A stretch of 64,000 bases of DNA from Saccharomonospora glauca K62 (GTDB lineage Bacteria; Actinomycetota; Actinomycetes; Mycobacteriales; Pseudonocardiaceae), in contig NZ_CM001484.1 in the NCBI RefSeq assembly GCF_000243395.2, positions 3,404,524 to 3,468,523 of the forward strand, in the 5' to 3' direction. Shown here in pieces: positions 5,585 to 14,536 of the stretch (its first letter is position 1; each line of letters opens with the position of its first letter). The translations under genes and the position numbers were made by a program. The notes beneath the pieces are model-generated. The model ran no database searches. It was given only the letters and a program-made list of their open reading frames with translations, and was not told the DNA's origin.

Positions 5585-5658
5585 GGGCCCGTAGCCCAAT
5601 TGGCAGAGGCACACGGTTTAGGTCCGTGCCAGTGTGGGTTCGAGTCCCACCGGGCCCA
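5585..5658 (+). tRNA. tRNA-Leu (anticodon UAG) by anticodon, but with class I short variable loop
   Basis: A full cloverleaf folds. The acceptor is GGGCCCG/CGGGCCC, the D-arm GCC/GGC (plus one mismatch), the anticodon stem CACGG/CCGTG with loop TTTAGGT, and the T-arm GTGGG-TTCGAGT-CCCAC. The discriminator is A and no full CCA is encoded. Anticodon bases 5619-5621 read UAG, decoding CUA (Leu). The variable region is only 5 nt, whereas bacterial leucine tRNAs normally have a long variable arm. It may be an unusual or horizontally acquired tRNA. Its 3' half is repeated at 16439-16470, suggesting use as an integration site. Confidence 0.85.
5621..5652 (+). repeat. Left copy of tRNA-derived direct repeat (candidate att site)
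   Basis: Thirty-two bases running from the last anticodon base through the T-arm to the second acceptor base recur at 16439-16470 with one mismatch (G5628 versus A16446). Tyrosine recombinases of actinobacterial islands commonly use tRNA 3' halves as attachment cores. Confidence 0.65.
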
Positions 5659-5916
5659 CCGACACGGATCGACCGGCGGGACACTGCTCCGCTCACCGCC
5701 TCGACGGGCAGGCGCAGTAGAAAGACGCGCCCATGCCGAAGCCTTCGCCCCGTTCCGTCTTCGGTGTGACCACCGGTGGCCCCTCTGGCCTGCCGCATAT
5801 CCCCGCCCTCGCCGCTCCGAGAAGGCAGGCACCGGCCCGCCCTACAGACATCGGGCACGCTAGAAACACACCGCCAGCAACTCTCGAACCATGACAGAGA
5901 CTGCCCCTCCCGGAAG
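5659..5916. other. Non-coding stretch between tRNA and CRISPR leader 1
   Basis: About 260 bases with no ORF having both a plausible start and a ribosome-binding site, and no convincing hairpin. It belongs to the left end of the putative island and could hold remnants of deleted genes. I see nothing else that I can support here. Confidence 0.5.
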
Positions 5917-5998: not shown

Positions 5999-6393
5999 GT
6001 CGGCCCCGCGCACGCGGGGATAGTCCGGTCCGGTCCTCTCGCCTAGGCTCCGGCCAGGGGTCGGCCCCGCGCACGCGGGGATAGTCCGCCACCGTTCAGC
6101 GGCGCGCGCGTCGCCGTCCACGTCGGCCCCGCGCACGCGGGGATAGTCCGTTTTCTGTAATTACCGTGAAGTAGTCTTTCATGTCGGCCCCGCGCACGCG
6201 GGGATAGTCCCAGCTTGTCGATGTTGCCGGTGGGGTTGTCGTCGTCGGCCCCGCGCACGCGGGGATAGTCCCTCCACCGTGCTCACCTCCACTCTGGGCG
6301 TCAGGTCGGCCCCGCGCACGCGGGGATAGTCCTGGCACTTCCTTACCGCGGTTGTTCCACAGGTAGTCGGCCCCGCGCACGCGGGGATGGTCC
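5999..6393 (+). CRISPR. CRISPR array 1, type I-E-like repeats, 7 repeats and 6 spacers
   Basis: The 28-base repeats start at 5999, 6060, 6122, 6183, 6244, 6305 and 6366. Each begins GTCGGCCCCGCG and contains the palindromic stem CCCCGCG-CA-CGCGGGG. Repeats 1-6 end GATAGTCC; the last ends GATGGTCC, the form found throughout array 2. Spacers are 33 bases, except spacer 2, which is 34. The repeat resembles actinobacterial type I-E repeats. No cas genes are in the window, so interference would depend on Cas proteins encoded elsewhere. Confidence 0.97.
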
Positions 6394-6678: not shown

Positions 6679-7890
6679 ATGGGCGAGAACGACATAGGTC
6701 GTCGTATCCGTGAGGTGAGGGCCTGGCGGGGGCTGAGCTTGCGCGCGACCGCCGAACTGACCGGCATCACCCACGGCTATCTCGGGCAGATCGAGCGCGG
6801 CGAGAAACCCGTGAAGAATCGACAGTTGCTCGAGGCATTGGCTCGGACGCTACGGGTCTCTCCCGTGGAGTTCCTAGCCGACGCCTACGGCCCTTCGGTC
6901 GAACCCGCCACGGAGGCGTCCACCGCCATGGCCGAGCTTGCCGATCTGCTCGGCGGTTGGTGGGTGGGCGAGGTGCCCGACGCACCGCCCCGGCCGCTCG
7001 CCGAGGTACTGGCCGACCTACGACGCTTCTACCGCGCACGAAACAGCCCCGGTCCGACGATGGCGGGCGACTACTCCACACAACTCGGCACGCTGTCGCG
7101 GCTGATCCGCGATCTGCTCGCCGCCGCAGCGAACCCGGCACACGAGCGTCGAGTGCTCGCGCCGTTGCTGACGGCGTATCACGTCGCGGGCAGCATCGCC
7201 ATGCGCCTGCGTATCCCCGGCATGCCCTCTCTGGCCGTCGACCGCATGCAGCAAGTCGCCGACCGGCTCGACGATCCGGTGTGGCAGGCCGTCGCGGCGT
7301 GGGCTCGTGCTCAATTCCTTTCCGGCGTCAACCGGGCTCGTCAGTACGAGCTCGCTGTCGCCGCCGCGGACATGGCACCGGCCGACCGACCCGAGACCCG
7401 AGGCATGGCCCACTTGACCGCGGCGATGGCCGCAGCGGCGCAGGGGAACGCCGATCTCGCGGAAACACACCTCGCGGAAGCAAGCGCGATCGCCGAGCTC
7501 GTGGAACCGGACGTGAGTCCGTGGCCGGCCGGGGTGATGCAGTTCGGGCGGACCAATGTGGGCATCTTCCGCGTCGCGGTGGGTGTCGAGCTCGGTCACG
7601 GTGCTCGTGTCGCCGAGGTCGCCAAGGACGTTCGGCTCGAAACGATCTCGCGCGGTCGCCAAGCAGCCTTCTGGCTCGACTACGGGCGCGGATTGCTGAC
7701 TGAGCGCGCCACACGTGACGAGGGGCTGTCCGCGCTGCTGCGGGCCGAACAACTCGCGCCCCAGCAGGTCCACACCAATGCGTTCGCCCGTGAAGCAGTC
7801 GCGGAGCTGCTGCGGTCCTCACGGCGTGATGCCAGCGGGCGAGAGGTTCGCGGCCTGGCATGGCGCATGGGATTGGCCCCGACCGGGTGA
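6679..7890 (+). CDS. HTH-TPR transcriptional regulator, cassette 1 (403 aa)
   Basis: The N-terminal XRE-type HTH (residues about 5-65: IGRRIREVRAWRGLSLRATA, then THGYLGQIERGEK) is joined to a roughly 300-residue Ala-rich helical region of tetratricopeptide type. This is the architecture of actinobacterial regulators that sense a ligand or protein through the TPR part. ATG 6679 follows GGAGGG with a 5-base gap. It is the first gene of the cassette with the peptide gene at 7952 and the helical protein at 8083. An inverted repeat lies 10 bases past the stop, so it may regulate the pair. The ligand is unknown. Confidence 0.85.
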   Translation: MGENDIGRRIREVRAWRGLSLRATAELTGITHGYLGQIERGEKPVKNRQLLEALARTLRVSPVEFLADAYGPSVEPATEASTAMAELADLLGGWWVGEVPDAPPRPLAEVLADLRRFYRARNSPGPTMAGDYSTQLGTLSRLIRDLLAAAANPAHERRVLAPLLTAYHVAGSIAMRLRIPGMPSLAVDRMQQVADRLDDPVWQAVAAWARAQFLSGVNRARQYELAVAAADMAPADRPETRGMAHLTAAMAAAAQGNADLAETHLAEASAIAELVEPDVSPWPAGVMQFGRTNVGIFRVAVGVELGHGARVAEVAKDVRLETISRGRQAAFWLDYGRGLLTERATRDEGLSALLRAEQLAPQQVHTNAFAREAVAELLRSSRRDASGREVRGLAWRMGLAPTG

Positions 7891-7900
7891 AGCCGTCCCG

Positions 7901-7919
7901 TGTGAACTCGCGGTACACA
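7901..7919. promoter_or_regulatory. Inverted-repeat operator, cassette 1
   Basis: TGTGAAC-N5-GTACACA is an imperfect 7-5-7 inverted repeat whose inner bases are AC...GT. It ends 32 bases before the ATG of the peptide gene, exactly the distance seen in cassette 3. TACCGT ends 7 bases before that ATG and looks like a -10 element (TANNNT) for a leaderless transcript. Confidence 0.5.
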
Positions 7920-7951
7920 AACTCCCCGATCAGCTTCCTACCGTTCCGCGC

Positions 7952-8086
7952 ATGAGCTGGAACAGCGGATCATGCCGTGGCGGGGGCCGTGCGACGTGGA
8001 CGGGGCAGGAACCGACACCGGCCACGACCGAGGACGAGCAGGAGACCACGGCCGCATCGTCGAGCGACGAGGGCGGTGACCGGTGA
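7952..8086 (+). CDS. small conserved peptide, cassette 1 (44 aa)
   Basis: It starts MSWNSGSCRGGGRATWTGQE and continues as a Thr/Ser/Glu-rich tail ending DEGGDR. Near-identical copies lie at 9878 and 13406, always directly downstream of an HTH-TPR regulator and always overlapping the next gene by GTGA. There is no Shine-Dalgarno sequence; a TACCGT box 7 bases before ATG suggests leaderless translation. No signal peptide is evident. I do not know the function. A regulatory ligand of the upstream TPR protein, a RiPP-like precursor, or a partner of the coupled helical protein are all possible. Confidence 0.65.
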   Translation: MSWNSGSCRGGGRATWTGQEPTPATTEDEQETTAASSSDEGGDR

Positions 8087-8358
8087 TCGCCCGCGACCGC
8101 GAACTACTGACGCGACTGGGACAAGTGAACGCCAGCATCGGTGAGGTCGTGCTCGCGCTCACGGCCGCCCAGGACGGCGGCGAACTGCCCGCCAACGGGC
8201 TTCGCGAAGTCGGCCACACCCTGCGCACTCTCGCCGAGGACATGATCGCCCGCGCCGACGAACTCGACACCACCCCACCCGAACTCCCCGGCAGATGCAC
8301 CCTGTGCGGCACCGAACCCATCGCTGAAAGCCACGTCGCGGCTGTGCCGCTGGGGTGA
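8083..8358 (+). CDS. small helical protein with partial zinc ribbon, cassette 1 (91 aa)
   Basis: GTG 8083 overlaps the stop of the peptide gene (GTGA), so translation is probably coupled. Residues 1-62 are predicted to form long helices (MIARDRELLTRLGQVNASIG ... LRTLAEDMIARADELD) and are almost identical in the copies at 10009 and 13546. A CTLCGTEP knuckle follows, but the second half of the ribbon seen in copy 3 is absent. Function unknown; the fold suggests a dimeric or partner-binding protein. Confidence 0.7.
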   Translation: MIARDRELLTRLGQVNASIGEVVLALTAAQDGGELPANGLREVGHTLRTLAEDMIARADELDTTPPELPGRCTLCGTEPIAESHVAAVPLG

Positions 8359-8564
8359 GACACCGGCCAGCACGAGGTCCGCACCCGCCGGTCCGAACCT
8401 TGAGCACGACGCCCTCGGACGCCCGCACGGCTGGGCCGCTTTGTGCTTTCGATCACGCACTTTCCGCTACTCTCGTGAGTGATTCTCTTCGTGGAAGAGC
8501 GTGTCTCGGCTTAACCACCGGGTTTCCGTGAAGAGGACATCACTCCGCAAACGAGGTGATCCGC
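8359..8564. promoter_or_regulatory. Promoter region of cassette 2 regulator
   Basis: About 200 bases separate cassette 1 from the next regulator. They contain a locally AT-richer stretch (8440-8490) with TCAC/GTGA half-sites around 8453 and 8476. Just before the regulator, GAGGTGATCC (8553-8562) matches the 3' end of 16S rRNA over ten bases, an unusually strong ribosome-binding site that favours GTG 8565 as start. No gene is apparent in this gap. Confidence 0.4.
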
Positions 8565-9791
8565 GTGCACGTCGACGAACTCGCCGGGAAACCCGTAGGA
8601 GAGCGCATCCAGGCGTACCGCGAACGACGCGGCATGTCCCGCCCCGTCCTCGCTGGTCTGGTTGGCCGTTCTCCCGACTGGCTCAAGAAGGTCGAGCGAG
8701 GTCACCTGCTACCGCCGCGGCTGGAGATGTTGGTGAAGTTGGCCGACGCGCTCGGCCTGCACGATGTCACCGCGCTCACCGGAGATCAGGCGGTCACGGT
8801 CAGCGCCGTCCGTCGGGAAGGCCACGAGGCTGTGCCCGCGATCCGGGAAGCAATCGAAGAGACCATCTTGGTGGTTGACCGGGAGATGCACCACGACGTG
8901 ACGGATCTGGTCGACCGGGCCGCCTATGCCTGGCGGGTGTGGCACACCTCGGCCACGCCGCGCGCCGATGTCGGCCGCGTACTGCCGTCGCTGTTGCGGG
9001 ATGCGCGCCGAGCCGCCCGTGTACTTACCGGCCCCGACCGTCGCACGGCGAATACCGCGCTCGTCGCCGCATACGCGCTGGCGGAGCAGGCGTTGGCGTG
9101 GGTGTCGGACTCGGCATTGCTGTGGATGTCCGCTGACCGGTGCATGACGGCCGCCGAGCAGGCCGACGACCCAGTGAGCCTCGCTGCCGCGGCATGGGTC
9201 GTGGGCAATGTGTGGAGAGCGACGGGCCGTGAGGAAGACGCGCTGCGGCTCGCGGTCGACGCGGCCGCCGTGCTCGCGCCGTATCTCGACGGCGATGACG
9301 ACACCATCCGTGCCCTGTGGGGCGCGTGTCGGCTGCACGCGGCGATCACGGCCGCGCGACTCGGCCGGGAGGGGGACGCGTTCCGTTACCTCGACGACGC
9401 CGACACGATCGTGACACGACTCCCCGGCAGCTATGCGCACCCGTGGACGTTGTTCGGCCGAGCCAACACCGATCTGACCGGGGTGTCGGTCGCCGTCGAC
9501 CTCCGCAAGAGCGGAACCGCGCTCGACAAGGCCGACGCCGTCGACCCGGACGTGATCCCGTCTCGGGATCGCCGGGCCCGGCTATGGCTGGAAACCGCCC
9601 GCGCGTACGCCCAGCGACGCGACTACACAGGCGCGCTGCACACCCTGCAACGCGCCACGGCGGCGAGCACGGAATCAATGCGCTGCCATCCACTGTCCCG
9701 TGGCCTGGCCGCCGAACTGGTCACCTCGGGCGGTCGGCTGATCCAGAAAGAAGCACAAAGCCTCGCGTCACAGCTCGGCGTCCTCACCTGA
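8565..9791 (+). CDS. HTH-TPR transcriptional regulator, cassette 2 (408 aa)
   Basis: N-terminal HTH (residues about 12-68: GERIQAYRERRGMSRPVLAG, then SPDWLKKVERGHLLPP) and a long Ala-rich helical TPR-type region (for example AAYALAEQAL, AAWVVGNVWRATGREEDALR). It shares architecture but little sequence with the cassette 1 and 3 regulators. Downstream lie an inverted repeat, the peptide gene 9878 and the helical gene 10009. I chose GTG 8565, eight bases after GAGG, over GTG 8556, which lies inside the Shine-Dalgarno sequence. Confidence 0.83.
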   Translation: MHVDELAGKPVGERIQAYRERRGMSRPVLAGLVGRSPDWLKKVERGHLLPPRLEMLVKLADALGLHDVTALTGDQAVTVSAVRREGHEAVPAIREAIEETILVVDREMHHDVTDLVDRAAYAWRVWHTSATPRADVGRVLPSLLRDARRAARVLTGPDRRTANTALVAAYALAEQALAWVSDSALLWMSADRCMTAAEQADDPVSLAAAAWVVGNVWRATGREEDALRLAVDAAAVLAPYLDGDDDTIRALWGACRLHAAITAARLGREGDAFRYLDDADTIVTRLPGSYAHPWTLFGRANTDLTGVSVAVDLRKSGTALDKADAVDPDVIPSRDRRARLWLETARAYAQRRDYTGALHTLQRATAASTESMRCHPLSRGLAAELVTSGGRLIQKEAQSLASQLGVLT

Positions 9792-9799
9792 CCGGGCAA

Positions 9800-9816
9800 G
9801 GGGACAAACCGTCCCC
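9800..9816. promoter_or_regulatory. Inverted-repeat operator, cassette 2
   Basis: GGGGAC-AAACC-GTCCCC is a perfect 6-5-6 inverted repeat just after the regulator stop and 61 bases before the peptide ATG. Its core GGACAAACCGTCC matches the cassette 3 repeat core GGACATTCCGTCC at 11 of 13 positions. A further palindrome GACATGTC lies at 9833-9840, and the -10-like TACCGT again ends 7 bases before ATG 9878. Confidence 0.6.
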
Positions 9817-9877
9817 CTCAGGGCGGGGTACCGACATGTCCCTCCCGCAACCGCCTGCCCCGCCTACCGTTCCGCGC

Positions 9878-10012
9878 ATGAGCTGGAACAGCGGATCATG
9901 CCGTGGCGGGGGCCGTGCGACGTGGACGGGGCAGGAACCGACACCGGCCACGACCGAGGACGAGCAGGAGACCACGGCCGCATCGTCGACTAACGAGGGC
10001 GGTGACCGGTGA
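9878..10012 (+). CDS. small conserved peptide, cassette 2 (44 aa)
   Basis: It differs from the cassette 1 peptide only near the end (SSTNEGGDR versus SSSDEGGDR). The same leaderless-type start and the same GTGA overlap with the following gene are present. The near identity of this block beside strongly diverged regulators points to recent duplication, gene conversion or strong selection on the peptide. Confidence 0.65.
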   Translation: MSWNSGSCRGGGRATWTGQEPTPATTEDEQETTAASSTNEGGDR

Positions 10013-10221
10013 TCGCCCGCGACCGTGAACTACTGACGCGACTGGGACAAGTGAACGCCAGCATCGGTGAGGTCGTGCTCGCGCTCACGGCCGCCCAGGA
10101 CGGCGGCGAACTGCCCGCCAACGGGCTCCGCGAAGTCGGCCAGGCATTGCGAACTCTCGCCGAGGACATGATCGCTCGCGCCGACGAACTCGACACCACG
10201 GCAGTGGTCGGTGCCCAGTGA
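10009..10221 (+). CDS. small helical protein lacking zinc ribbon, cassette 2 (70 aa)
   Basis: GTG start overlapping the peptide stop. Residues 1-62 match the cassette 1 protein except for GQA in place of GHT; the sequence then diverges to AVVGAQ and stops, so the Cys-containing C-terminal part seen in the other copies is missing. It may be a truncated but still functional helical core. Function unknown. Confidence 0.65.
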   Translation: MIARDRELLTRLGQVNASIGEVVLALTAAQDGGELPANGLREVGQALRTLAEDMIARADELDTTAVVGAQ

Positions 10222-10550
10222 TGCCCCGACCGCTCCGAGGCCGCCGTGGTCGACGACCGTCCGACGCGGCTTCTCGGTGGCCTGTTGCATACGCCAATAT
10301 CTCGGCCTGCACAACTCGGACTCCCAGTTGGCGGTCTGACTCCGGATGAGGTTGAGACATTGCCTCAGGGCGTCGCTCACTCCGGTACTACGCGCGCTGA
10401 GGTTCGCGATACCGTCGGTTGCGTGCGAGTCAGGGAAGAGCTACGGAACGTGTCAGTCCCACGTGGTAGTGATGTCGCTGCACCAAGCCCTTGCCCAGAC
10501 GTTCGCCCCACCCACATGTCCCGCCATCCAACGACTACCTCCACCGGAGA
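10222..10550. other. Gene-free stretch before CRISPR leader 2
   Basis: About 330 bases after cassette 2. Rightward frames exist here but lack ribosome-binding sites and any recognisable protein pattern. It is less GC-rich than the flanking genes. I see no repeats or hairpins that I can support; it may be remnant sequence. Confidence 0.4.
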
Positions 10551-10632
10551 ACAGATGACCAGCCTCTACCCGTCCCGTGACAGACTGAATGAAAATCGCT
10601 CCTTGACCGAGTAAACGCCCAGGTCAACAAGT
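10551..10632 (+). promoter_or_regulatory. CRISPR leader 2
   Basis: It is collinear with leader 1 from ACAGATGACCA through CAGACTGAATGAAAA (10581) to CAACAAGT, 82 bases in both cases with no length difference. It directly abuts the first repeat of array 2. Confidence 0.75.
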
Positions 10633-11270
10633 GTCGGCCCCGCGCACGCGGGGATGGTCCCCATCCACGAGATCAGCGGGTGGCCGGGGAAGAGTCGGCC
10701 CCGCGCACGCGGGGATGGTCCGCGGTTGCTCGGGTTCGACCACTACATCAGGGCGTCGGCCCCGCGCACGCGGGGATGGTCCGCCCATTCCGTACTGTTC
10801 GACCAGGCGCCGCTGGTCGGCCCCGCGCACGCGGGGATGGTCCTCCCGCTGGGTTTTCCCCTCCCCTAGCGGGCTTGTCGGCCCCGCGCACGCGGGGATG
10901 GTCCTCGATGGGTAGGCCACAGAGAACGGGTAAGCACGTCGGCCCCGCGCACGCGGGGATGGTCCTCGGACCGTTGGGGTCGGAGTGTTCTCGCTGAGGT
11001 CGGCCCCGCGCACGCGGGGATGGTCCGCGTTGAGCTGATGGAGAAGCCGCCGGGAAGCAGTCGGCCCCGCGCACGCGGGGATGGTCCGAACCACAGCCCG
11101 TCACGGCCCTGGTGCGGCTCGTCGGCCCCGCGCACGCGGGGATGGTCCGCGCGAGTGTGGGTACGCGCTTCCTCGGGCCTGGTCGGCCCCGCGCACGCGG
11201 GGATGGTCCGCACCGGATCAGCACTCCGGTGTGGGTATGGGCGTCGGCCCCGCGCACGCGGGGATGGTCC
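10633..11270 (+). CRISPR. CRISPR array 2, type I-E-like, 11 repeats and 10 spacers
   Basis: The 28-base repeats recur at an exact 61-base period from 10633 to 11243, each beginning GTCGGCCCCGCGCACGCGGG and ending GATGGTCC, with ten 33-base spacers. The repeats appear uniform. The repeat matches the final repeat of array 1, not its first six. The array is followed at once by a decayed DUF2637 gene, as array 1 is. No cas genes are adjacent. Confidence 0.98.
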
Positions 11271-11339
11271 CGCAGTGCGCTTCGCTCCAAGGGCCAGGCG
11301 GTGCCACCGCATGTGGCCGGTCATCCGGGTGCGCGGCTG

Positions 11340-11751
11340 ATGGCCTGGGCCGGGTTCGGCACCGTGATCTCGGTGGCGGCGAACGTACTGCACACGTGGA
11401 TTCCGCAGCAAGGCGTAGCAGTCCGGCCTAGCTCCGCAGCTCGGCGCGGCGGTGTGGCCGCTGGCGCTACTGCTGTCGGTCGAGGTGCTGTCGCGGGTAG
11501 CGTGACTCCGGGTAACAGTGGACGGCAGCGAGATTCGGCGCCGTCACCGTGGTGGCCGAGGCGGCAGTGATCTCTACGGCCATATCCGGGACGTGCTCGT
11601 TCACTGAGGCTATGGCACCGCAGGCGCGCACGTCGGCCCGCTGGTGGTCGACGGGTTGGTGATCGTGTGCGGGTTCGCGCTGTTGGCGCTCAGCCGTGAT
11701 GAGAAACGCCGAGGAGTCGAAGAACGACATGTCAGCGACATCCACCGCTGA
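11340..11751 (+). pseudogene. Decayed DUF2637-type membrane protein gene
   Basis: Fragments in different frames spell the family. MAWAGFGTVISVAANVLHTW starts at 11340; a shifted frame gives APQLGAAVWPLALLLSVEVL then RVA and a stop. A third segment reads LYGHIRDVLVH, stop, GYGTAGAHVGPLVVDGLVIV then CGFALLALSRDEKRR, ending at TGA 11749-11751. At least one frameshift and an internal stop are present. It is better preserved than the remnant at 6430-6592, showing that both follow a CRISPR array and precede an HTH-TPR cassette. Confidence 0.7.
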
Positions 11752-11764
11752 GAGGACACCCCAC

Positions 11765-11980
11765 ATGGTCACGCCGGAAGAGAAACGTAAGGCGCTATTC
11801 AGCATCATCGGAAACGGGCTGTACCTGCTCGTGATCGCCGCTGCCGTCGTGTTCCTGGTTGTCATCGCGATCAACAGCGATGGCGGCTACTCGCTCGGTC
11901 TGCTGCTCGGGCGTGTTGCGCTCGTGCTCGCCGTGATCTACCTGCTCGTGCGGTTCGTCAAGTGGGCGGCACGAAGATAG
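11765..11980 (+). CDS. small two-helix membrane protein, 71 aa
   Basis: It begins MVTPEEKRKALFSIIG and has two predicted membrane segments (residues about 17-36, LYLLVIAAAVVFLVVIAI, and about 45-64, LLLGRVALVLAVIYLLVRF), then a KWAARR tail that should face the cytoplasm. ATG 11765 follows AGGA at a workable distance; upstream in-frame starts lie within the DUF2637 pseudogene. Function unknown. A hairpin terminator follows 17 bases after the stop. Confidence 0.65.
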   Translation: MVTPEEKRKALFSIIGNGLYLLVIAAAVVFLVVIAINSDGGYSLGLLLGRVALVLAVIYLLVRFVKWAARR

Positions 11981-11997
11981 CAACCGCGCTCGCCGAA

Positions 11998-12030
11998 GCG
12001 GCCCCGGCACCGTGTGGTGTCCGGGGCCGC
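11998..12030. terminator. Hairpin terminator after small membrane gene
   Basis: GCGGCCCCGG ... CCGGGGCCGC arms enclose a 13-base loop in which CACC/GGTG can also pair. It separates the small membrane gene from the cassette 3 regulator. Confidence 0.7.
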
Positions 12031-12163
12031 TTGCTGTTCGGGGTGACGTACCGATCGGCTCCTGGCTACGCTGTGCGGCGGACCCTTCGCGTGCTTCGCC
12101 CCGCATGAGGAACCCTGGGGCGACGCGGAGGAATCCCGGCCACGCGACGAAGGGGGTACCCCC

Positions 12164-13342
12164 ATGCAGGAGATCGGCGCACGCATCAAGGCCCTACGCG
12201 GCAAGCTACTCACCCAAAAGCAACTCGCGGACGCTGCGGGCGTGTCGGTGGACGTGATTCGCAAGCTGGAACAGGGCACCCGTAAGACCGCCGCGATCGG
12301 CACGCTCACGAAGATCGCCCGCGCTCTCGACGTGTCCCTGCCCGAGCTTCTCGGACAGCGCACCTCCGTGCCCACCGGTGAAGCGGACGGCGGCGTGGTC
12401 GCACTTCGACAGGCCCTCTCTCCCATCGACGACCTCATCGGCGACATCACAGGTGAGCCCATCACGCTCGACGACGCGCGCCGCGCCGTCGACTACGCCT
12501 GGTCGGCGTACTGGGGTGGCCAGTACGACCACCTCGCCACCATCCTGCCGTCCACGTTGCCGCAGTTGCGAGCCACCATGCACGCTGCCAGTGCAGACCA
12601 GCGATCCGCCGCGGCTGAGTTGCTTGCTCGTGCCTACTGGGTCACCGGCTGCACCCTCGTCCATCTCGGCCAGACCGACATCGCCTGGCAGTCCATCCGT
12701 CTCGCCCACGACACCAGCGGTCACGGCTCCGACGAGCTTCTTACCGCTACCATCCGCGGGTCGATCGCGTGGCAGCTCCTCGTACAGGGCCGTTACGACG
12801 AGTCCCACCGCGTCGCTGTCCGCACTGCGGAGACGATCGAGCCCCGCGGGGATGTGCCGTTGCCGCACCTGTCCGCGTACGGCAGCCTCATCCTCACCGC
12901 GGCCACAGCGTCCGGCCGCGCGCGGCGGGTCGGCGAAGCTCAGCACCTTGTTGGCCAGGCCGCCGCCGTAGCAGGCCGCATGGGTGTGGACCGCCACGAC
13001 TACGAAACCTACTTCGGCCCGTCTCAGGTTGTGATGCAGACCGTCGATGTCTGCGTGGTCACTGAGGACTACGCGGGCGCACTCGACGCCGCGAAACGGA
13101 TGCCGCGTGGTACCGCACTGCCGTTGGCGTCCCGGTGTCGACACCTCGCCGACCAGGCATTCGCGCACGCCCGTCTTGGCCATGCCCAACGGGCCGTTGA
13201 CGCGCTGCTCATCGCAGAATCGATGGGGCCCGACTGGATTCGACACCAGACACTGCCGCGCCGCATTGTTGGCGAGCTGCTGGAGCGTGACCGGCAGTCG
13301 CGTCTTCGGAGCCTCGCCCGCCGCCTCTCCGTCACCGGATAG
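12164..13342 (+). CDS. HTH-TPR transcriptional regulator, cassette 3 (392 aa)
   Basis: N-terminal XRE HTH (residues about 4-62: IGARIKALRGKLLTQKQLAD, SVDVIRKLEQGTRK) followed by a helical TPR-type domain (AAELLARAYWVTGCTLVHLG, AHARLGHAQRAVDALLIAES). ATG 12164 follows AAGGGGG. A 7-5-7 inverted repeat lies 12 bases after the stop, ahead of the peptide gene. It is diverged from the other two regulators, so the three sensors probably recognise different signals. Confidence 0.85.
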   Translation: MQEIGARIKALRGKLLTQKQLADAAGVSVDVIRKLEQGTRKTAAIGTLTKIARALDVSLPELLGQRTSVPTGEADGGVVALRQALSPIDDLIGDITGEPITLDDARRAVDYAWSAYWGGQYDHLATILPSTLPQLRATMHAASADQRSAAAELLARAYWVTGCTLVHLGQTDIAWQSIRLAHDTSGHGSDELLTATIRGSIAWQLLVQGRYDESHRVAVRTAETIEPRGDVPLPHLSAYGSLILTAATASGRARRVGEAQHLVGQAAAVAGRMGVDRHDYETYFGPSQVVMQTVDVCVVTEDYAGALDAAKRMPRGTALPLASRCRHLADQAFAHARLGHAQRAVDALLIAESMGPDWIRHQTLPRRIVGELLERDRQSRLRSLARRLSVTG

Positions 13343-13354
13343 CCCGGTCGGGTA

Positions 13355-13373
13355 GTAGGACATTCCGTCCTAC
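13355..13373. promoter_or_regulatory. Inverted-repeat operator, cassette 3
   Basis: GTAGGAC-ATTCC-GTCCTAC is a perfect 7-5-7 inverted repeat ending 32 bases before the peptide ATG 13406. Its core resembles the cassette 2 repeat. The -10-like TACGGT ends 7 bases before that ATG. The position suits autoregulated control of the peptide gene by the upstream HTH protein (inference). Confidence 0.65.
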
Positions 13374-13405
13374 CTGGACATGCCGAAGCGGCCTACGGTC
13401 CGCGC

Positions 13406-13549
13406 ATGAGCTGGAACAGCGGATCATGCCGTGGCGGGGGCCGTGCGACGTGGACGGGGCAGGAACCGACACCGGCGACAACCACGCCTGAGAACGATCG
13501 GGAGAACGCGGACGCGACGAAGTCGAGCGACGAGGGCGGTGACCGGTGA
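13406..13549 (+). CDS. small conserved peptide, cassette 3 (47 aa)
   Basis: The first 25 or so residues (MSWNSGSCRGGGRATWTGQE then PTPATT) equal those of cassettes 1 and 2. The middle differs (TPENDRENADATK) and the end SSDEGGDR is conserved again. Conserved ends with a variable linker suggest that both termini matter. The GTGA overlap with the next gene and leaderless-type spacing are preserved. Confidence 0.65.
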   Translation: MSWNSGSCRGGGRATWTGQEPTPATTTPENDRENADATKSSDEGGDR

Positions 13550-13947
13550 TCGCCCGCGACCGTGAACTACTGACGCGACTGGGACAAGTGAACGCCAGCA
13601 TCGGTGAGGTCGTGCTCGCGCTCATGGCCGCCCAGGACGGCGGCGAACTGCCCGCCAACGGGCTTCGCGAAGTCGGCCAGGCATTGCGAACTCTCGCCGA
13701 GGACATGATCGCCCGCGCCGCCGAACTCGACACCACCCCACCTCCACGTCCCGGCAGATGCGCCCTGTGCGGCACCGAGCCCGTCGCTTGTCCCCATGCT
13801 GAGGCGTGGATGGTCGAAAGCCGCTTCTGTGTCGACTGCATCGACCACTGCCTCAGCGATGCCCGCCACGGCCACTGGTGCCCCGTTGATGCCTTCGCCC
13901 ACGCTCAGGAGACCTCTTTTCGAGGTAAGGCCCGTCTCGATGCATGA
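13546..13947 (+). CDS. small helical protein with full zinc ribbon, cassette 3 (133 aa)
   Basis: GTG start coupled to the peptide gene. Residues 1-62 are the conserved helical core. The C-terminal part has Cys/His pairs CALCGTEPVACPH and FCVDCIDHC plus HGHWC, enough for one or two zinc sites, followed by a basic tail. This is the longest of the three paralogues; copies 1 and 2 look like shortened versions. Its stop overlaps the start of the gene at 13940. Confidence 0.7.
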   Translation: MIARDRELLTRLGQVNASIGEVVLALMAAQDGGELPANGLREVGQALRTLAEDMIARAAELDTTPPPRPGRCALCGTEPVACPHAEAWMVESRFCVDCIDHCLSDARHGHWCPVDAFAHAQETSFRGKARLDA

Positions 13948-14224
13948 CTCACCCGTCGTCGTGGTCACCCCACCACCCGAGACCGAGGCCGAGCGGACCG
14001 CACGGCTCTGTCTGCCGGACGTCTGGCAGTGGCCCGACCGTGACCCCGATCCCCCACCCGAGAACGTGATCGCCGAAGCCCACACGGCACTACACCGGTG
14101 TGAGGAGCCAACCCTGCCGATCCTGCACGCCGTCCTCGACGGACTCCGGCGACAACTCCCCCACACGGCCCCGGAGACACCGGGGAGTGGAAGGGATTCC
14201 CTCCTCCGGTGGCAGACTGAATGA
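13940..14224 (+). CDS. hypothetical Pro/Glu-rich protein, 94 aa, overlapping CRISPR leader 3
   Basis: ATG 13940 overlaps the preceding stop (8 bases shared), suggesting coupling. The sequence starts MHDSPVVVVTPPPETEAERT, has an acidic Pro-rich middle (WPDRDPDPPPENV) and a helical C-terminal half (IAEAHTALHRCEEPTLPILH). Its stop codon falls inside the conserved CRISPR leader. It is found only with the third cassette. Function unknown. Confidence 0.5.
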   Translation: MHDSPVVVVTPPPETEAERTARLCLPDVWQWPDRDPDPPPENVIAEAHTALHRCEEPTLPILHAVLDGLRRQLPHTAPETPGSGRDSLLRWQTE

Positions 14225-14264: not shown

Positions 14265-14536
14265 GTCGGCCCCGCACACGCGGGGATAGACCGCGGACGT
14301 TTGGGCGGCTATCGCGGACGCCGCGGTCGGCCCCGCACACGCGGGGATAGACCGTTCCGCAGGATCGCCCACAGCCACGAGCCCTTGTCGGCCCCGCACA
14401 CGCGGGGATAGACCCGGCGGCCGCCTCGGCCGCCTCGGCCGACGCTCGTCGGCCCCGCACACGCGGGGATAGACCGTAGCCGTCCTCCTCGTCGAGGTCC
14501 CAGCCACCGTCGGCCCCGCACACGCGGGGGTACCCC
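14265..14536 (+). CRISPR. CRISPR array 3, type I-E-like, 5 repeats (last degenerate) and 4 spacers
   Basis: Repeats start at 14265, 14326, 14387, 14448 and 14509 with 33-base spacers. The repeat differs from arrays 1 and 2 at the loop (CCCCGCACACGCGGGG) and the end (GATAGACC). The fifth repeat keeps the stem but then turns into GGTACCCCC, where it meets the truncated leftward reading frame at 14531-14625. No cas genes are adjacent. Confidence 0.95.

Follow-up and report, generated by a model that had tools for sequence, protein, structure and literature searches.

Exchangeable regulator and operator units on a conserved small operon in Saccharomonospora: a putative modular regulator system resembling WhiJ/BldB loci

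The described systems closest to the locus reported here join an XRE-type regulator, or a comparable receptor, to small neighbouring genes. In the iosA-whiJ9-bldB9 locus of Streptomyces, as given in an excerpt of the source, WhiJ9 activates the adjacent leaderless gene iosA, and a WhiJ9 site together with a 2-fold rise in the mutant fits autorepression (PMC10294661). Going likewise by excerpts, XRE/DUF397 pairs have been proposed as type II toxin-antitoxin systems (PMC2701414) and questioned as such (PMC10364602), and the signature of RRNPP quorum-sensing systems includes a propeptide export criterion (PMC10075063). Here we describe a 64 kb window (the whole stretch of DNA analysed) from the genus Saccharomonospora, which carries three cassettes in a row, each composed of a regulator with helix-turn-helix (HTH) and tetratricopeptide repeat (TPR)-like parts, a peptide with the motif MxWxxGxC and a small helical protein. 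A literature search for a described system of this kind found none, returning only background on WhiJ/DUF397, clustered regularly interspaced short palindromic repeats (CRISPR) and RRNPP systems. As judged from its sequence, this is a real, unnamed modular regulator system, in which sensor-plus-operator units are exchangeable on a fixed small operon.

The three cassettes lie on the + strand at 6679-14224; in each, the regulator gene is followed by a gene for a peptide of 44-47 amino acids (aa) and, through a GTGA overlap, by the helical gene. We refer to the regulators of window cassettes 1, 2 and 3 as classes s1, s2 and s3 and to that of a fourth genomic copy as class s4; cassette loci and genomes of the comparison set carry L and G labels, respectively. 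The fourth cassette stands elsewhere in the same genome in divergent orientation, and two more helical genes are found at 2.34 and 0.55 Mb. An earlier note on this stretch had reported three cassettes with GTGA overlaps and divergent sensors; all are present, with the s2 regulator beginning at 8556 instead of 8565. The note had missed the peptide family, the palindromes, the sharing of sites by regulators, the fourth gene, the CRISPR arrays and the further genomic copies. The peptides and helical copy 3, missed in the window by a simple codon-usage caller that placed an antisense frame at the latter, rest on conservation, and the start codon of the fourth (WQWP) gene was picked by comparison with relatives. 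The cassette features are as follows.

6679..7890, + strand: HTH-TPR regulator s1, 403 aa (HTH_31, 7.6e-12; phrog_5823 match 4-399)
7901..7919, no strand: putative s1 operator TGTGAAC-N5-GTACACA, beginning 51 nt ahead of the peptide start codon
7939..7944, + strand: putative -10 element TACCGT of copy 1, 7 nt before the ATG, without Shine-Dalgarno, predicted leaderless
7952..8086, + strand: MxWxxGxC peptide copy 1, 44 aa (pN/pS 0.18 in frame)
8083..8358, + strand: helical protein copy 1, 91 aa, CxxC tail incomplete
8556..9791, + strand: HTH-TPR regulator s2, 411 aa (HTH_31, 6.3e-12)
9800..9816, no strand: putative s2 operator GGGGAC-N5-GTCCCC, palindrome conserved at -77 to -79 in three relatives
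9878..10012, + strand: MxWxxGxC peptide copy 2, 44 aa, preceded by TACCGT at 7 nt from the ATG
10009..10221, + strand: helical protein copy 2, 70 aa, short form
12164..13342, + strand: HTH-TPR regulator s3, 392 aa (HTH_3, 1.7e-11)
13355..13373, no strand: putative s3 operator GTAGGAC-N5-GTCCTAC, beginning 51 nt ahead of the peptide start codon
13394..13399, + strand: putative -10 element TACGGT of copy 3, 6 nt before the ATG
13406..13549, + strand: MxWxxGxC peptide copy 3, 47 aa (open frame, conservation)
13546..13947, + strand: full-length helical protein (copy 3) with the CxxC..CxxC tail; chimera, break near 13720
13940..14224, + strand: fourth gene, WQWP type, 94 aa, overlapping the helical stop and ending at a CRISPR leader

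Regulators of different classes occupy the same genomic sites. At an MBOAT acyltransferase site, s4 is present in G000 and G090, s1 together with an s4-matching fragment in G144, another HTH-TPR class in G111 and a truncated HTH gene in G173; the peptide and helical genes are kept in all five genomes, with cysS and rlmB beside them in four of the five. At a tRNA-Leu site, the equivalence of which was established by the tRNA-Leu found in L052 and L124 plus flank orthology, the window has s1, s2 and s3 with CRISPR arrays, G111 has s4, and G149, from another genus, has an HTH-DUF5753 regulator with DUF6879. The further features of this site in the window are listed below.

5585..5660, + strand: tRNA-Leu, left edge of the variable region (ARAGORN, Rfam tRNA)
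5999..6388, + strand: CRISPR array 1, 61-nt period, I-E-like repeat
10633..11270, + strand: CRISPR array 2, I-E-like
11696..11980, + strand: small membrane protein preceding the s3 regulator (gene maps compared by eye)
14265..14529, + strand: CRISPR array 3, first repeat ~40 nt past the fourth-gene stop

A small membrane protein gene similarly precedes s3 in L053 (8369-8584, by eye).

The class of the regulator does not follow the phylogeny of its output. On a helical tree of 23 rows, which took in classes s1-s4 only, regulator class needs 11 changes, against a mean of 11.6 for shuffled labels, which were as low in 79 of 200 shuffles; some helical cores group by genome and not by regulator (the window copies; L039 with L040). 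As far as these sequences go, regulator class is uncorrelated with the helical tree, and the picture drawn in the earlier note, of a modular system with variable regulators and a conserved output, has held up.

The window regulators are 25-30% identical pairwise in a three-sequence alignment, and in a ten-sequence alignment the identity to s2 is 25% for s1 and 23% for s3. Because s2 orthologues elsewhere reach 85% (L043) and 95% (L041) identity while mutual identity among s1, s2 and s3 stays at 23-30%, the three represent different old classes. All three carry an N-terminal XRE HTH (HTH_31/HTH_3) by Pfam. The shared HTH-TPR architecture proposed earlier thus stands for the HTH, amid 23-30% identity; the TPR part is weak by Pfam (below cut-off in s2, no match in s1 and s3) and better supported by profile comparison, in which the window regulators match designed TPRs. 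Pfam did not find DUF5753 in the three window regulators; the domain is present in regulators of the relatives L090, L012, L124 and L128. A search of the phage collection with s1 returned no match (E up to 1e-8); phrog_5823 nonetheless covers s1 almost end to end (4-399). Regulators like s4 occur in 36 plasmid records, and the two records viewed (Streptomyces, Nocardia) showed no annotated adjacent small gene in an incomplete gene table. In L041, L055 and L107, the regulators are split or truncated and the peptide and helical genes remain open.

Upstream of the peptide gene, each class has a putative operator of its own. Eight of 18 promoters (s1, s3 and s4) carry a 7-5-7 palindrome starting 50 or 51 nt before the peptide ATG, with arms that differ by class (s1, TGTG(A/T)AC..GTACACA, one mismatch in the window; s3, GTAGGAC..GTCCTAC; s4, GGTTTCC..GGAAACC); in four others, those of s2, (G/A)GGGAC-type palindromes start at -77 to -79. 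The s1, s3 and s4 sites, for which genomic uniqueness was searched, are each found at a single place in the genome when up to 1 mismatch is allowed (s1 pattern TGTGWAC-N5-GTWCACA), and a local, one-target logic of the regulators is supported by sequence. The case for operators lies in the geometry shared by three unrelated classes and in the conservation of the arms with changed spacers (L040 versus L014). In G128, both parts of the s3 unit have degenerated, the operator by decay and the gene by a split into two frames, as would be expected if they work together. A second, weaker palindrome near -43 was seen by eye in the s2 promoters (9827-9842 in the window); it reads GGTRC-N6-GTMCC in relatives and is less perfect in the window.

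The promoters themselves point to a particular mode of control. TANNNT stands 6-8 nt before the ATG in 13 of the 18, all 13 without a Shine-Dalgarno; 11 have it at 6-7 nt and two at 8 nt, and in a control that counted 6-7 nt only, 16 of 3242 ATGs (any, both strands) had it. A TANNNT so close to the ATG, without a Shine-Dalgarno, predicts leaderless transcripts in s1-s4. With the ATG as +1, the palindrome centre of s1, s3 and s4 falls near -41, which suggests a dedicated activator. XRE activators contact RNA polymerase from about -41, as lambda cI does at PRM. In the divergent s4 cassette, as read from L004, the regulator gene also has a putative leaderless start, and relative to it the palindrome lies at about -30, suggesting autorepression. 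We infer regulator binding, activation and a leaderless start from these patterns, the last two being likely.

The output on which these inputs converge is in part a DNA repeat. The peptide gene and helical core form a repeat of ~300 bp that starts at 7937, at the promoter -10. Over 300 nt, copies 1 and 2 share 97% identity (88-100% in windows starting 9871-10151, 28-52% outside them), and copy 2 is 68-95% identical throughout to the orthologous s2 cassette of G128. Copy 3 is 71% identical to copy 1 when ungapped; gapped 40-nt windows starting 13411-13731 give 72-100%, with 98-100% in 5 of 9, and outside these windows identity is at most 58%. Compared with L012, a DUF5753-type locus at 2.34 Mb, copy 3 is 28-50% identical before 13680 and 62-100% identical from 13720 through the CRISPR leader; thus copy 3 is a chimera, with a copy 1-like core that becomes L012-like from ~13720. 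The near identity of peptides and helical cores noted earlier is therefore true as identity and, being due to a DNA repeat, reflects duplication or gene conversion and not independent conservation. On this mosaic pattern, within-genome gene conversion with its left edge at the promoter -10 explains the near identity.

Residues 1-20 of the peptide are identical across the three window copies. The pooled ratio of nonsynonymous to synonymous differences (pN/pS), taken over all pairs of ten sequences that are not independent as pairs, was 0.18 in frame for peptide codons 1-21 versus 2.30 and 1.02 in the shifted frames, and 0.22 for the helical core; by these measures the peptide frame is coding and under purifying selection. 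M1, W3, G6 and C8 are invariant in 13 aligned peptides from two genera. A profile search found at least 24 places in 15 of 297 family genomes and 5 of 46 genera, 13 of the 24 being the profile's own rows, found via such loci; W3, G6 and C8 are kept in 20 of the 24 and in 7 of the 11 non-profile matches, the latter adding two more genera (G036, G044). Within 2.5 kb of all 24 places, the 11 non-profile ones included, there is a gene for an XRE HTH protein or a sensor, as called with a sensor hidden Markov model (HMM) into which some of the tested loci had themselves gone. Among the 20 control stretches of 10 kb, which were set at round coordinates and not randomly drawn, 3 contained XRE HTH genes. 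A peptide homologue without a regulator, which the earlier note had held would speak against its reading, was not found among these 24. The helical gene was detected by HMM at 21 of the 24, and in two of the three exceptions (L168, L169) a diverged helical-like frame follows the peptide, by eye. For the peptide, Pfam, NCBIfam and PHROGs gave no named family above cut-off. Single peptides also gave weak matches in other genera (14 of 20 genomes, E 2.3e-4 to 0.01), which we attribute to chance.

We favour, with a little better than even confidence, the reading of the cassette as a switch with interchangeable input and fixed output, in which exchangeable one-site activators, each a regulator with its operator, act on a fixed small operon. 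Each HTH-TPR protein would be a local regulator, most likely of one genomic site, the class-specific palindrome upstream of the peptide gene. The peptide transcript would most likely begin at the peptide ATG, with the site at about -41 in three of four classes, and the regulator would most likely activate a coupled operon for the MxWxxGxC peptide, the helical protein, sometimes with a CxxC..CxxC tail, and the WQWP protein. Where the cassette is divergent, the regulator would also use this site to repress its own promoter. Recombination in the repeated peptide/helical core would have swapped the whole input, regulator and operator together, with the output retained. By likeness to BldB-type partners, the helical protein would be expected to feed back on the regulator.

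Several observations weigh against this model. The s2 site lies near -70 and not -41; the palindrome of L132, an s4 relative, is at -101, and L053, an s3 relative, has lost it. L107, L110, L124 and L128 are without a common palindrome and without a -10, L124, L128 and L132 carry a Shine-Dalgarno instead of a -10, and a search of the region returned no sigma-70 consensus promoter. Taken one by one, the palindromes reach no significance over their own 130-nt shuffles (fraction reaching the score 0.035 to 0.8), the reversed control patterns also yielded palindromic sites (1 for s1, 2 for s3 and 1 for s4), and the 18 promoters include several orthologues. The helical tree is weakly resolved (59 columns, one starred branch of 20), and 4 of the 24 peptide matches deviate (R3 in G062, a stop at codon 3 in G207, M8 at two places in G028). 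The site could conceivably serve a repressor.

The helical family spans at least 46 of the 297 genomes, including all 12 of the genus, with at least 13 matches in the richest genome; counts from the genome searches, which scored at most 13 candidates per genome for the helical protein and 22-23 for the peptide, are lower bounds. Of 85 distinct helical genes (88 minus 3 shorter than 55 aa, identical loci being merged in the locus survey), 49 have a regulator within 1.3 kb upstream and none was detected for 36, an upper bound, since remnants such as that of L097, found by another profile, are missed. The helical protein has no named family above cut-off in Pfam, NCBIfam, PADLOC or PHROGs, its weak PHROG match being to CII-like activators (E 0.011-0.047), and the core is absent from the phage and plasmid collections searched (E up to 0.001). 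The PDB holds no sequence relative of the helical protein (only coiled-coil designs, Rop and weak matches) and none of the CxxC tail; a ClpX-like zinc finger label for the tail had no search support and is not claimed. In L013 (3100-4110), L089, L091, L111, L118 and L123, helical genes with no regulator detected nearby carry a long C-terminal extension, and a second paralogue (..LLRITRAIDTETE..) comes after them; L118 is merged with L013 as identical. A helical gene also lies on an IMG/VR viral contig (L011, 2951-3193), with an HTH-DUF5753 regulator upstream and, by eye, a lysin-like gene downstream.

The fourth protein carries WQWPxRDPD and has no named family in Pfam, PADLOC or PHROGs, so that none of the three small proteins reached a named family above cut-off in the libraries tried; the earlier note had likewise matched its gene set to no named family. 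WQWP-like genes stand in the same place in L012, L040, L052, L054, L090, L110 and L121 (by eye); those of L052, L054, L110 and others were called as genes and the window copy was not. In L112 (10398-10709, by eye), a WQWP-type domain is fused to a CxxC..CxxC tail, parts that are separate in the window. At the DUF5753-type loci L090 and L121, a zf-HC3 protein replaces the peptide. DUF397 was not found in the window peptide, helical or WQWP proteins; it is present in the relatives L090, L012 and L121.

Among other explanations, it is unlikely that the cassette is a toxin-antitoxin-like or abortive-infection pair, in which the HTH-TPR protein would repress the operon and neutralise a toxic helical protein or peptide. 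In its favour are the small genes next to an XRE regulator and their multiple copies, several of them short or broken; XRE/DUF397 pairs are predicted as such systems in the excerpt of PMC2701414, and s3 has a weak match to the antitoxin-subfamily HTH couple_hipB, below cut-off at 40.9 of 71.65 bits. Yet no toxin family was found above cut-off for the peptide, helical or WQWP proteins in the libraries tried, the palindromes near -41 favour activation, and the up to 36 of 85 helical genes without a detected upstream HTH are unlike what would be expected of an unpaired toxin. PADLOC, searched for described anti-phage defence, had no match for the helical or WQWP proteins and matched the regulators over HTH stretches only (capH, RmrA, control proteins, HTH_VI, PDC-M69A, mad1); the immunity function suggested earlier thus gains nothing there, and the CRISPR neighbourhood is suggestive only.

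That neighbourhood recurs. Three I-E-like arrays are interleaved with the window cassettes. The exact pattern of the window repeat, to which the genome-wide array search was confined, occurs in 3 of the 12 genus genomes, and in these an array on the same strand follows 345-1247 nt after the end of 7 of the 15 helical matches. Four of six array clusters have a helical cluster within 20 kb, which was reached in 2 of 100,000 random placements, a statistic in which related genomes are not independent. An array is present in 8 of 83 cassette loci scanned (L041 and L053 being one place) versus 0 of 20 control stretches. In another genus, L132 has a cassette upstream of an array and Cas3; cassettes also lie near RAMP/Cmr3 genes in L090 and ~2 kb from an array in G149 (L125). 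In L121, a genus relative, a reverse transcriptase (RT)-Cas1 fusion with Cas2 and two arrays of another repeat (776-2834) lie near a zf-HC3/helical cassette with DUF397 genes.

These arrangements, the cas genes of L132, L121 and L090 included, together with the lack of any terminator call between 13940 and 14265 (fourth gene to array 3), would suit a cassette that drives the array behind it, its sensor-controlled operon reading through the short leader into the array. We consider this decidedly unlikely: in 9 of the 12 genus genomes helical genes occur although the exact window repeat is absent, no cassette precedes array 1, the only Cse1 gene is ~1.4 Mb from the window, and hot spots can be common to arrays and cassettes without regulation. 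With nine genomes lacking the repeat and array 1 lacking a cassette, CRISPR control would be at most a secondary use, or the two would share a hot spot. A more specific proposal, that swapped one-site HTH-TPR or HTH-DUF5753 regulators license individual arrays, each through an array-specific signal and an operon transcript that reads through the short leader, is speculative and, if anything, slightly less likely.

Another improbable reading treats the peptide as no more than a leader frame, through which translation of the helical gene is coupled or attenuated. The predicted leaderless start, the GTGA coupling and a GAGG within the peptide C-terminus, which could serve the helical start, are compatible with it, as is the stop at codon 3 of the G207 frame; the invariance of W3, G6 and C8 in the 13 aligned peptides, their retention in most profile matches and the purifying selection on the frame argue otherwise. 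Peptide sensing of the RRNPP type, put forward earlier, with a secreted, matured peptide bound by the TPR domain of the neighbouring regulator, is very improbable: the receptor length (392-411 aa) and the adjacent small peptide gene fit, but on reading the aligned peptides no hydrophobic or basic-hydrophobic export stretch was seen, one peptide would have to serve three unrelated receptors, PlcR and ComR align to the window regulators over the HTH alone by profile comparison, and the conserved residues are N-terminal, mature RRNPP signals being usually C-terminal in the excerpt of PMC10075063.

Under the favoured model of exchangeable activators on a fixed operon, the locus would be a natural case of a transcription factor and its operator exchanged as a unit on a conserved promoter and operon, with readable breakpoints. 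It adds unnamed small families (peptide, helical and WQWP) that accompany XRE regulators in Pseudonocardiaceae, and, with three regulators that each have a predicted single target, it renders the partner logic testable. That cassettes recur ahead of CRISPR arrays in two genera, and close to other cas genes, poses the question of array-specific control.

Compared with known systems, the cassettes share with CRISPR-Cas (type I-E; RT-Cas1) a place at arrays and near cas genes, but contain no Cas protein, and their helical genes occur in most genus genomes without the window repeat. They share with the XRE/DUF397 pairs, as excerpted from PMC2701414, an XRE gene beside a small uncharacterised gene and lineage-specific expansion; unlike those pairs, the window has other small proteins, three or four genes and no toxin family match in the libraries tried. 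With the RRNPP regulators (PlcR, Rgg, ComR, AimR) they have in common an HTH plus putative helical-repeat receptor within 250-500 aa and a small peptide gene beside it, whereas here no export signal was seen on reading, and the peptide is not receptor-specific and is translationally coupled to the helical protein. Closest are the WhiJ/BldB loci, which likewise combine multicopy XRE regulators with small partner genes and, as predicted here, local activation of a leaderless gene; some cassette relatives (L012, L090) even have HTH-DUF5753 regulators with DUF397. The window regulators differ in their TPR-like C-termini and lack of DUF5753, the window cassettes in having no DUF397; the putative window sites are palindromes where WhiJ sites are direct repeats, and several regulators serve one output. 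The WhiJ-type resemblance pointed out earlier is thus a likeness in working: by analogy, the cassette works most like the WhiJ/BldB loci without being a member of them.

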